Source of the DNA: Flavihumibacter petaseus NBRC 106054
GTDB taxonomy: Bacteria; Bacteroidota; Bacteroidia; Chitinophagales; Chitinophagaceae
Assembly: GCF_000974785.1 (NCBI RefSeq)
Contig: NZ_BBWV01000001.1
Span: forward strand, 868,001-932,000
Direction: 5' to 3'
Length of the DNA stretch: 64,000 nt
Numbering within the stretch: the first letter of the stretch is position 1; every line of letters begins with the position of its first letter. Positions 51,931 to 56,444 of the stretch are shown here, in pieces. The position numbers and the translations under genes are program-made. The notes under the pieces were generated by a model. The model worked only from the letters and a program-made list of their open reading frames with translations, was not told the origin of the DNA and did no database searches.

Positions 51931-53025
51931 TTACTTGTTCATCGTGTTCTTGGCCTCGATGCTGAGCGTAGCGTGGGGCACAGCGCGCAGACGGGCTTTA
52001 TCGATGAGCTTACCGGTAACCCGGCAGATACCATAGGTCTTGTTCTCAATCCGCATGATCGCTTTCTCAAGGTGATCGATGAAGGTGATCTGGCGGCTGG
52101 CCATCTGCGCCAGTTGTTCCCTTTCCATACTCACGCTACCATCTTCCATGGTCATATAACGGCTTTCGCTTTCGTCACCTCCCATTTCGTCTTTGCGGGT
52201 AATCAATCCCTGCAGGTACGCCAACTCTTTTTTGGCTGCATCAAGCTTTTTATTGATCAATTCTCTGAACTCCTGTAATTCGTTGTCACTGTATCGCATA
52301 GTCGGGCCTGGATTTGCAGCGGCATTCTGATCAAGCACGCTTTTGGTAAAATCTGGATTGTATGGTTGAACCGTCTTCGTCTTGATCTCGGGCATCACCA
52401 CTTTTGTGGGACGTTTTTCCGGAGGCGGAGCCGGTTTCTTAATCGGAATCGGTGTGGTCTGCTTGGAATCATCTTTCACAGCAGGCTTCGGCGGCATGGG
52501 TTTGAGACCTTGCCGGATGATTTTCTTCACGGGCTCTTTCTTCACTTTTTCTTTGGGTTGTTTTACCGCGACAGGCTCCTCCGCCTTAGGGGCAGGTGCA
52601 GCTTTCGATGCTGGAGCGGGTGCAGCTGCTTTCGCAGGTGCCGGCACAGGCGCAGCGGGTTTTGCCGGAACAGATTTAGCCGGAGCAGGAGCAGCGGCTT
52701 TTTGAGCTGGTTTGGCAGCAGCCTTCACAGGGGCCGGTTTGGCAGCAGCTTTCGCCGGTGCTTTTGCCGGAACTGGTTTGGCAGCAGCTTTCACGGGCGC
52801 TCCTTTAGGGGCAGCTTTGGCAGGAACAGATTTAGGGGCAGGCGCTTTTGAAGCCGGCTTTGCAGCGGGTTTAGCAGCCTTTACAGGCGCTGCTTTCGCA
52901 GGGGCTTTTTTGGCCGGGGCGGATTTAGCAGCTGCTTTCGCAGGGGCTTTTTTGGCAGGCACCGCTTTTTTTGCCGGAGCAACTTTTTTGGCGGCGGGTT
53001 TAGCAGCCTTCTTCTTTGTTGCCAT
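51931..53025 (-). CDS. TraR/DksA-like protein with histone H1-like Lys/Ala/Pro-rich N-terminal tail
   Basis: 364 residues. The first 150-160 are a low-complexity, highly basic tail of AKAAPAK-type repeats. A short linker with KKPAPPPEKRPTKVV and KTVQPYNPDF follows. The C-terminal 120 residues are DksA-like: MRYSDNELQEFRELINKKLD leads a coiled-coil and YGICRVTGKLIDKARLRAVP is the zinc-finger region. Only one Cys of the usual C4 finger remains, so zinc binding is unlikely. The tail could bind DNA like the histone H1 C-terminus. It follows ileS on the same strand. Confidence 0.88.
   Translation of the reverse strand: MATKKKAAKPAAKKVAPAKKAVPAKKAPAKAAAKSAPAKKAPAKAAPVKAAKPAAKPASKAPAPKSVPAKAAPKGAPVKAAAKPVPAKAPAKAAAKPAPVKAAAKPAQKAAAPAPAKSVPAKPAAPVPAPAKAAAPAPASKAAPAPKAEEPVAVKQPKEKVKKEPVKKIIRQGLKPMPPKPAVKDDSKQTTPIPIKKPAPPPEKRPTKVVMPEIKTKTVQPYNPDFTKSVLDQNAAANPGPTMRYSDNELQEFRELINKKLDAAKKELAYLQGLITRKDEMGGDESESRYMTMEDGSVSMEREQLAQMASRQITFIDHLEKAIMRIENKTYGICRVTGKLIDKARLRAVPHATLSIEAKNTMNK
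52560..53020. repeat. Low-complexity Ala/Pro/Lys codon repeats in the DksA-like gene
   Basis: Imperfect repeats built on GCX-CCX-AAR codons (for example GGCTTTGGCAGGAACAGATT and GCTTTCGCAGGGGCTTTTTT on the plus strand) encode the basic tail. They give long antisense frames that are not genes. Length of this tract is likely to vary between strains. Confidence 0.7.
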
Positions 53026-53060: not shown

Positions 53061-56000
53061 TTATTGGGATTGGGGCGACCGATCGACCCAAACGGTTACT
53101 GGTTGATCATTCACTTCAATTGCCATTCCATCCTGCAGGGAATCCACCACTTCCAGCTCATCTGCCAGCACTTCCGCCTTAATATAAGGCGCAAATTGCC
53201 GGAAGGAAGCCTCCAGCGGACCCGCCTGACCGAGCCGCACCAGGATCCTGTCGGTCAGCTCGTAGCCATTGTCCTTCCTGATCTTCTGAATCCTGTTCAC
53301 CAGCTCCCTGGCATTCCCCTCCTGTTCCAGTTCCGGACTAACCGTAACATCGAGGGCAACCGTGAGGGCCCCTTTCGAACTTACCATCCATCCAGGGATA
53401 TCCTCACTGGTGATTTCAACCTCATGGATTTGTAATATTAAGGGTTCGCTATCAATTTCCAAAGAATATGAACCTTCTTTTTCCAGCTGTGAAATATCGG
53501 CCTGATTAAAGTTTCCGATAGCCGCTGAAACCGCTTTCATTTTGCTTCCCACGCGCTTTCCAAGTGCCTGAAAATTAGGCCTGATCTTCTTCTTGATGAA
53601 ACCATCCGCATCTGTCAGATACTGGATTTCCTTCACATTTACTTCCGACAGTATCAGGTCTTCCACCTTGTCGATCTGGGTCTTCATCGCCGGATCCAGC
53701 ACAGGGATCAATATGCGCTGCAGCGGCTGCCGCACTTTAATGTTGACCTTCTTCCGGAGCGACAACACCAGCGAAGAGGCATCCTGCGCCAGTTGCATCC
53801 TTTCCTCCAGCCCCTTGTCGATCAGGCTTTCGTCAGCCTTCGGATACAGCACATGGTGAACGGATTCCAACGCATGCTTCCCGGTAACACTGTTCAGGTT
53901 GCCGAACAGCCAGTCCGAAAAGAAAGGCGTCACCGGTGCCGCCAGCCGCGCAATCGTCTCGAGGCAGGTATACAGGGTCTGGTAAGCACTGATCTTATCG
54001 GTACTGTACTCTCCTTTCCAGAACCGCCTGCGGCAAAGGCGTACATACCAGTTGCTGAGCTGCTCATCCACGAATTCGTCGATCAGCCGGCCGGCCGTGG
54101 TCGGCTCGTAATCATCAAAAGCAGCGGTCACCTCTTTTACCAGGCTCTGCAGGCTGCTCAGGATCCACTGGTCGATTTCAGGCCTTTCCTGCACCGGGAT
54201 GGGGGCTTCGCGGAAAGCAAAACCGTCCACATTCGCATACAGGGCAAAGAACTGGTAGGTATTATATAAGGTACCAAAGAACTTGCGCTGCACTTCTTTG
54301 ATGCCTTCGAGGTCAAACTTGAGACTATCCCAGGGCGACGCATTGGTGATCAGGTACCAGCGGGTAGCATCCGCACCAAACTTCTCGATGGTGGAAAACG
54401 GGTCCACCACGTTGCCGAGGCGTTTGCTCATCTTGTTGCCGTTCCGGTCCAGCACGAGACCGTTAGACACCACTGTCTTGTACGCAACATTATCATACAA
54501 CAAGGCGCCGAGGGCGTGTAGCGTATAGAACCAGCCGCGGGTCTGGTCAACGCCTTCCGCAATGAAATCAGCCGGGAAATTCTGGCCGAAGGGCGCTTTA
54601 AAAGGACGATCCTCTCCCCTTTCGAGTTTTTCCTGGTCAAGTCCCCACTGGGCATAGGGCATGGCCCCGCTGTCGAACCACACATCGATCAGGTCCGGTT
54701 CGCGGCGCATGGGCTTACCACTTTCGCTTACGAGAACCACTTCGTCCACATAAGGTTTATGCAGGTCGAGGATACCGTCGTGCAGGTAGTGGTGGTTGAT
54801 ATCACCGCCCAGTACTTCGTTGGCTTTCCGGATTTCGGCATTGAGCTCAGCGATGGAGCCGATGCATTTTTCTTCACTGCCATCTTCCGTGCGCCAGATG
54901 GGCAGCGGGGTTCCCCAGAAGCGGCTGCGGCTGAGGTTCCAGTCCACCATGTTCTCCAGCCAGTTGCCGAAACGGCCTTCGCCGGTAGCTTTCGGTTTCC
55001 AGTTGATGGTCTTGTTCAGTTCCACCATGCGGTCTTTGATCGCGGTGGTTTTGATGAACCACGCATCGAGGGGATAGTACAACACGGGTTTGTCTGTCCG
55101 CCAGCAATGGGGGTAACTGTGTTCGTATTTTTCGACCTTGAAGGCCCGGTTCTCTTTTTTGAGTTTTACGCTGATGTCAACATTCACATCCACGTAATCG
55201 GGCTGGTCTTTATAATTTTTTACATAACGGCCGGAGAATTCGCCGAGGCCATCCACGAATTTGCCTTCGCGGTCTACCAGGGTGAGGATGCCGATGCCGT
55301 ACTTCTTCCCTACCTTATAGTCATCTGCACCGAAAGCCGGGGCGGTATGCACGATACCGGTACCATCTTCGGTGGTCACAAAATTGTCGATCAGCAGCCG
55401 GAAGGGGTCGCCGCCGGATTTTTCGGCGGTATTGGCCGGGTAAGGCAGCAGCTGCTCATAACGGAGATGTTCGAGCGCCTTGCCCTTGAATTCGGCCAGG
55501 ATGCTCCAGGGGAGTGCTTTTCCGGCAGGGTCATAGGCGGCGAAATCGCCGTTTTCGTGTTCGGGTTTGAAGTATTTGTGCAGGAGTGCTTTTGCCAGTA
55601 CAACGTTCACGGGCAGGTGCGTATAGGGGTTGAACGTGCGCACCAGTACATAGTCGATATTGGCGCCAACCGTCAGACCGAGGTTGGAGGGTAGCGTCCA
55701 GGGCGTGGTGGTCCAGGCCATGAAGTACACTTCTGCTCCCGCGCCTTCCGCTTTTTCGGCGGCATTATACAGGAAAGCGCTTTCCGCATTTCGGACAGCC
55801 TTGAACATGGCGACGGCACTGGTATCCTTTACATCCTTATAGGTACCGGGTTGGTTGAGTTCGTGGGAGCTCAGGCCGGTTCCTGCTGCGGGGGAATACG
55901 GCTGGATGGAAACACTCTTGTAGAGCAGGCCTTTTTTATAGAGGCGTTGCAGGCACCACCACAGCGTTTCGATATAGCTGTTGTCGAACGTGATATAAGG

Positions 56001-56444
56001 ATCATTGAGGTCAACCCAGTAACCCATTTTCTGGGTGAGATTGTCCCATTTGTCCTTGAAACGCAGCACGGCTTCGCGGCATTTCTGATTGTATTCCTCA
56101 ACCGTGATCTTTTTGCCGATGTCTTCCTTGGTGATGCCGAGTTCCTTTTCGACACCCAGTTCGATGGGGAGGCCGTGGGTATCCCAGCCGCCTTTGCGTT
56201 TCACCTGGAAGCCCTGCATGGTTTTATAGCGGCAGACGAGGTCTTTCAGGGCGCGGGAAATGACGTGGTGAATACCGGGCATTCCATTGGCGCTGGGCGG
56301 CCCTTCATAGAATACAAAGGGTGCGGCGCCTTCCCTGAGGGACACACTTTTTTCGAAAGCCTGTTCGCGGTTCCATTTTTCGAGGATCTCCGCTTCGATC
56401 GAAGGCAAATTCAACTGTTGAAATTCCCGGTACTTCGCTGCCAT
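53061..56444 (-). CDS. ileS: Isoleucyl-tRNA synthetase with GIHH signature
   Basis: 1127 residues of the long IleRS type. The class I HIGH position reads NGMPGIHHVISRALKD, so residues 57-60 are GIHH instead of HxGH. The editing domain has AWTTTPWTLPSNLGLTVGA with the Thr-rich motif. The KMSKS signature is KMSKR at 671-675, followed by the anticodon-binding domain and a C-terminal extension. It attaches Ile to tRNA(Ile) and hydrolyses mischarged Val. The dksA-like gene follows after 35 bp. Confidence 0.97.
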   Translation of the reverse strand: MAAKYREFQQLNLPSIEAEILEKWNREQAFEKSVSLREGAAPFVFYEGPPSANGMPGIHHVISRALKDLVCRYKTMQGFQVKRKGGWDTHGLPIELGVEKELGITKEDIGKKITVEEYNQKCREAVLRFKDKWDNLTQKMGYWVDLNDPYITFDNSYIETLWWCLQRLYKKGLLYKSVSIQPYSPAAGTGLSSHELNQPGTYKDVKDTSAVAMFKAVRNAESAFLYNAAEKAEGAGAEVYFMAWTTTPWTLPSNLGLTVGANIDYVLVRTFNPYTHLPVNVVLAKALLHKYFKPEHENGDFAAYDPAGKALPWSILAEFKGKALEHLRYEQLLPYPANTAEKSGGDPFRLLIDNFVTTEDGTGIVHTAPAFGADDYKVGKKYGIGILTLVDREGKFVDGLGEFSGRYVKNYKDQPDYVDVNVDISVKLKKENRAFKVEKYEHSYPHCWRTDKPVLYYPLDAWFIKTTAIKDRMVELNKTINWKPKATGEGRFGNWLENMVDWNLSRSRFWGTPLPIWRTEDGSEEKCIGSIAELNAEIRKANEVLGGDINHHYLHDGILDLHKPYVDEVVLVSESGKPMRREPDLIDVWFDSGAMPYAQWGLDQEKLERGEDRPFKAPFGQNFPADFIAEGVDQTRGWFYTLHALGALLYDNVAYKTVVSNGLVLDRNGNKMSKRLGNVVDPFSTIEKFGADATRWYLITNASPWDSLKFDLEGIKEVQRKFFGTLYNTYQFFALYANVDGFAFREAPIPVQERPEIDQWILSSLQSLVKEVTAAFDDYEPTTAGRLIDEFVDEQLSNWYVRLCRRRFWKGEYSTDKISAYQTLYTCLETIARLAAPVTPFFSDWLFGNLNSVTGKHALESVHHVLYPKADESLIDKGLEERMQLAQDASSLVLSLRKKVNIKVRQPLQRILIPVLDPAMKTQIDKVEDLILSEVNVKEIQYLTDADGFIKKKIRPNFQALGKRVGSKMKAVSAAIGNFNQADISQLEKEGSYSLEIDSEPLILQIHEVEITSEDIPGWMVSSKGALTVALDVTVSPELEQEGNARELVNRIQKIRKDNGYELTDRILVRLGQAGPLEASFRQFAPYIKAEVLADELEVVDSLQDGMAIEVNDQPVTVWVDRSPQSQ

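Follow-up and report, generated by a model that had tools for sequence, protein, structure and literature searches.

Two forms of the first class I signature motif occur among the type 2 isoleucyl-tRNA synthetases (IleRS2), with 86 G/AXHH and 77 HXGH enzymes given in the Figure 2 legend of Brkic et al. (2023; PMC10485003), so that the exchange of the first and third motif positions has precedent in roughly half of the type 2 enzymes in that tree. The G/AXHH form has been tied to mupirocin hyper-resistance, and its third histidine has been reported to be able to replace the first histidine in catalysis and to clash with mupirocin (PMC10485003). The Deinococcus radiodurans enzyme (DrIleRS2), which naturally carries ALHH, has a mupirocin Ki of 6600 µM that falls 823-fold, to 8.1 µM, when the motif is changed to HVGH, while introduction of GVHH raises the Ki from 1.08 to 460 µM in Priestia megaterium IleRS2 (PmIleRS2) and from 0.20 to 35 µM in TtIleRS2 (PMC10485003 Table 1). 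Given the Ki of just 35 µM reached by the latter, the level of resistance is not set by the motif alone. The introduced swap furthermore cost activity in both of these canonical enzymes (PMC10485003).

A second motif, HYPFE, has been reported as typical of type 2 IleRS by Cvetesic et al. (2016; PMC4861432), where the Firmicutes, Actinobacteria, Chlamydiae, Spirochaetes and Deinococcales are named as holders of the type 2 enzyme. Bacteroidota are mentioned neither there nor in the passages of PMC9437257 or the main text of PMC10485003, the source-data tree of which may include them. No measurement of a Bacteroidota IleRS against mupirocin was recognised among the literature matches listed, nor was the fixation of GxHH in the apparently sole IleRS of the Bacteroidota found stated among them; the latter is apparently the new point of the present analysis.

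The ileS gene of Flavihumibacter petaseus and its product

The window analysed here, a 64,000-nucleotide stretch of the F. petaseus NBRC 106054 genome, carries on its minus strand a gene (ileS; 53061..56444) encoding a 1127 amino acid isoleucyl-tRNA synthetase. The translated product matches the TIGR00392 ileS model over its full length (Bitscore: 1000; cut-off: 621.4) and contains the Pfam domains tRNA-synt_1, Anticodon_1 and PF19302 (DUF5915), the last of which forms a C-terminal domain at residues 928-1122 (53079..53663, minus strand, computed from the ORF start; Bitscore: 186.6). Its best relatives of known structure are four PmIleRS2 chains (776-787 bits over residues 17-1118), whereas the IleRS1 chains 8c9f, 8c9e and 1ffy/1qu2 score 303-311 bits. 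With PmIleRS2 at 776-787 bits and IleRS1 at no more than 311 bits, the protein is therefore assigned to type 2 by whole-length similarity, and the affiliation proposed in the initial annotation held. The second class I signature, which had been described as normal, was confirmed as KMSKR at residues 671-675 (54420..54434, minus strand; position 671 taken from the translation and coordinates computed from the ORF start). It represents the sole KMSK in the protein and is of the KMSKS type.

The first signature is altered, as the initial annotation had claimed. Residues 57-60, encoded on the minus strand at 56265..56276 by GGTATTCACCAC, read GIHH in place of HxGH, with G at the first position and H at the third and fourth, in the manner of the G/AXHH enzymes. 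When the protein is aligned to the solved PmIleRS2 chains with phmmer, ngmpGIHH lies over NGLPGVHH of 8c8w and over NGLPHVGH of 8c8v and 8c8u, of which the first is a GVHH mutant and the latter two are wild-type enzymes (PMC10485003 data availability). In this alignment the swapped motif thus occupies the HIGH position, and it is invariant in all 13 aligned rows, made up of the window sequence and 12 loci from the phylum sample.

The HYPFE motif is absent, with GLDQEKLERGEDRPFKAPFGQ in its place at residues 599-626 (54567-54650, minus strand, by translation) in a region that reads QWGLDQEKLERGEDRPF. Scoring for H[YFH]PF[ED] covered the 35 of 56 rows of the tree described below that have a locatable region, 21 rows not being scorable, and the motif was found in 31 of the 35, the exceptions being the window and the loci L072, L092 and L096. 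The loci L021, L022 and L023 likewise lack it, while L024, L025, L026 and L098 keep HFPFE or HYPFE, and from these sequences the absence is read as a local loss within the clade. As HYPFE is lost locally, the type 2 label rests on whole-length similarity, and the surroundings in the window enzyme differ from those in the enzymes that have been tested.

Directly downstream of ileS, on the same strand and starting 35 bases past its stop codon, lies a gene for a dksA/traR zinc-finger protein (51931..53025, minus strand; PF01258, Bitscore: 33.2; cut-off: 24.9). This protein has a very long N-terminal extension rich in alanine, lysine and proline, and the opposite-strand open reading frames over its gene are probably by-products of this composition. 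A rough, uncalibrated dksA/traR pattern, to be taken as indicative, was found downstream of ileS in 9/12 loci (L021-L032) and, among the 80 loci L042-L121, in five (L059, L064, L078, L098 and L117); many of these 80 loci are truncated, belong to other phyla or lack a long ileS frame.

Copy number and distribution within the Bacteroidota

The gene had been suggested as a possible housekeeping copy, being the only ileS visible in the window, and a check for a second ileS in the genome bore this out: the F. petaseus genome (5.69 Mb, 99.74% complete) contains one match above the ileS cut-off. The remaining matches are weak, fall below this cut-off and are located in frames of 891, 971, 733 and 525 amino acids, which probably encode other class I synthetases. 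As the single IleRS found in the genome, the window enzyme is therefore the housekeeping enzyme. Exactly one match to the ileS model at E <= 1e-100 was likewise obtained in each of 148/148 phylum genomes of at least 90% completeness, for each of which five first-look candidates were scored. The model also matches all 14 control genomes, including Escherichia coli and Bacillus subtilis, and a type 1 enzyme would therefore be recognised if scored. In nine genomes near the window (G000, G007, G017, G033, G037, G064, G091, G115 and G126) the place of the GxHH pattern was checked by eye and falls inside the ileS match.

The motif in its context, NGxPGxHH, was found in 392/395 genomes of the phylum, representing 170/170 genera among them, and in all 371 of those with a completeness of 90% or more and contamination of no more than 5%; within the family it is present in 94/98 genomes and in 89/89 of the good ones. 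The seven misses are all 79-89% complete (three in the phylum sample, 81-88%; four in the family sample, 79-89%). Among the former, G291 has a gene fragment at a contig end, and in G338 and G354 (81% complete) no IleRS match was obtained by protein search. The background of the pattern is low: one or two extra matches occur in 12/395 genomes (three matches in G273 and two in each of the others), and the reversed control matched at least one genome, G206. Second IleRS copies were considered for these 12 genomes and rejected, since the protein search gave one full IleRS in each; a further match in G184 is not full-length (30% identity over query residues 622-926, in a frame of 879 amino acids).

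Because the motif recurs in context in 392 of the 395 genomes, GIHH is neither a chance occurrence nor a local error, and the swap is not special to F. petaseus but a normal trait of the group. The activation reaction of class I synthetases normally needs the first histidine of HxGH, as quoted in PMC10485003, on which grounds GIHH could mark a catalytically impaired enzyme, or else a sequencing error, with another synthetase performing the work. This is extremely improbable, however, in a 99.74% complete genome with a single IleRS and with a motif that is shared across the phylum, and IleRS2 enzymes with ALHH or GVHH have been found active in published work (PMC10485003).

The canonical counterpart of the pattern, NGxPHxGH, gave matches in 15 genomes of this 395-genome sample, and all 15 were translated. 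None is an IleRS: 13 are glutaminyl-tRNA synthetases (GlnRS; NCBIfam) and two, L006 and L007, are short frames of merely 75 and 157 amino acids. Stray matches are expected for this pattern, as its reversed control matched nine genomes by table count. Neither pattern would detect an IleRS whose motif is flanked by other residues.

Distribution beyond the phylum and phylogeny

Named genomes were also scanned for the two forms of the motif, which gave at least 80 loci from at least 120 stretches, and all 80 loci listed were read, 56 of them with GxHH and 24 with HxGH. Among these matches, no HxGH motif occurs in a locus titled as Bacteroidota, while GxHH is also present in Ignavibacteriota, Gemmatimonadota, Chloroflexota, Acidobacteriota and Planctomycetota, as well as in some Clostridia, proteobacterial MAGs and one Patescibacteria MAG. 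The HxGH rows among them include Bacillota and sequences of Patescibacteria type.

A tree of 56 rows was constructed from the window and the 55/80 loci with at least 830 amino acids from the motif context onwards, with 25/80 loci dropped as too short and the four motif columns excluded. The 27 Bacteroidota rows, the window included, form one clade in which all carry GxHH (SH-aLRT 100), and this clade adjoins GxHH rows of Ignavibacteriota and Acidobacteriota on a joint branch with an SH-aLRT of 98. The nearest named relative of the window enzyme in this tree is that of Terrimonas (78% identity), and the phylum name given to the genome sample rests on such named relatives. At least three changes of the motif are required on this tree, which was built by a quick method without bootstrap and rooted on two chosen rows, such that the direction of change is not readable from it.

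Elsewhere in the tree, L045 and L060 are sister rows on long branches (SH-aLRT 100) that differ in the state of the motif, the former having GIHH and the latter HIGH, and this pair is a possible place to study a motif switch. The Saccharibacteria MAG L065 and the MAG L067 harbor deep-branching IleRS enzymes with an HFGH signature, in which no second signature of KMSK or KMSR type was found by pattern.

Environmental Bacteroidota may encounter mupirocin producers, and the swap could accordingly be imagined as a recent resistance adaptation of a strain or lineage, for example one living beside mupirocin-producing pseudomonads. The tie between the motif and resistance in the published enzymes (PMC10485003) would fit such an origin. 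The occurrence of GxHH in 392/395 genomes and 170/170 genera and in a single clade of the tree argues against it, as does the finding that none of the canonical-pattern matches in these 395 genomes is an IleRS, and a recent adaptation is very improbable. As read from the tree, the swap would rather have been inherited, its fixation most likely predating the divergence of the sampled Bacteroidota.

Why the swap arose is a separate matter. Its fixation may have had a cause unrelated to mupirocin, either another natural inhibitor or drift in a permissive type 2 active site, with resistance as a by-product, and we regard such an origin as a serious possibility, though somewhat short of an even chance. 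The presence of the swap throughout the phylum and in several other phyla is as compatible with a neutral or entrenched change as with selection in the past. Furthermore, position 47, the E of YEGPP, is E in 40/40 GxHH rows versus 4/16 HxGH rows, the other 12 having D. E47 and several other residues were considered as an explanation for tolerance of the swap but were not retained as independent evidence, because the tree needs only three changes, and the association with GxHH can be explained by shared descent. Against a non-mupirocin origin, the 2023 authors prefer antibiotic selection (PMC10485003). Both origins can be reconciled with an inherited swap that confers resistance, differing solely in why the swap arose.

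Predicted activity and mupirocin resistance

By analogy with the published enzymes, H59, the third histidine of GIHH, would stand in for the first histidine of HxGH in catalysis. In the shifted active site of a type 2 enzyme, this residue may fit beside the adenine and yet clash with mupirocin, which would leave the enzyme active and strongly mupirocin-resistant. The literature to which the initial annotation referred for this link between the swapped IleRS2 motif and hyper-resistance is real (PMC10485003), and by family, as that annotation had also reasoned, the window IleRS is likely mupirocin hyper-resistant with catalysis retained. Mupirocin in culture media has been predicted to increase the diversity of Bacteroidaceae (PMC13085705), which is only weakly consistent with mupirocin resistance in Bacteroidota.

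We therefore consider it very probable that the window encodes the sole, housekeeping type 2 IleRS of a Bacteroidota bacterium, with an inherited swap of HxGH to GxHH, and that this enzyme would be active and strongly resistant to mupirocin. On a wider scale, HIGH was probably lost before the phylum radiated, from what is the sole IleRS in essentially all of its members, and no reversion occurs in the sample; this would render the Bacteroidota hyper-resistant to mupirocin at the target level by descent and the motif an entrenched housekeeping state rather than an emergency resistance device. In one large phylum, an essential enzyme thus apparently exists solely in the form with the published resistance-linked swap. 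If the predicted hyper-resistance holds, the target-level insensitivity of the Bacteroidota to mupirocin would be ancestral, and lists of resistance genes that include a Bacteroidota IleRS would be counting a housekeeping gene; IleRS has been counted among the resistance genes in a Flavobacteriaceae genome (PMC10835994).

Comparison with known systems

The window IleRS shares with the IleRS2 enzymes of Streptomyces griseus and D. radiodurans, both of the G/AXHH form (PMC10485003), its type 2 affiliation and the exchange of the first and third motif positions, and mupirocin hyper-resistance would be expected of it by family, as for the other G/AXHH enzymes. It carries GIHH, whereas the D. radiodurans enzyme carries ALHH, and it differs from the published G/AXHH enzymes in its origin from the Bacteroidota, in the absence of HYPFE and in being known here from its sequence. 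Among solved structures, the best-scoring relatives are those of P. megaterium IleRS2 (8c8u, 8c8v and the mutants 8c8w and 8c9d). The P. megaterium enzyme has a natural HVGH motif and coexists with an IleRS1, in contrast to the GIHH motif and sole-copy status of the window IleRS. MupA and MupB of staphylococci are homologous to the window IleRS over most of its length, with the models scoring 764 and 772 bits against cut-offs of 1900, such that it is not identified as either protein. These also represent an additional gene carried on a plasmid (the plasmid ileS2 in Staphylococcus aureus), whereas the window ileS encodes the sole IleRS of its genome.
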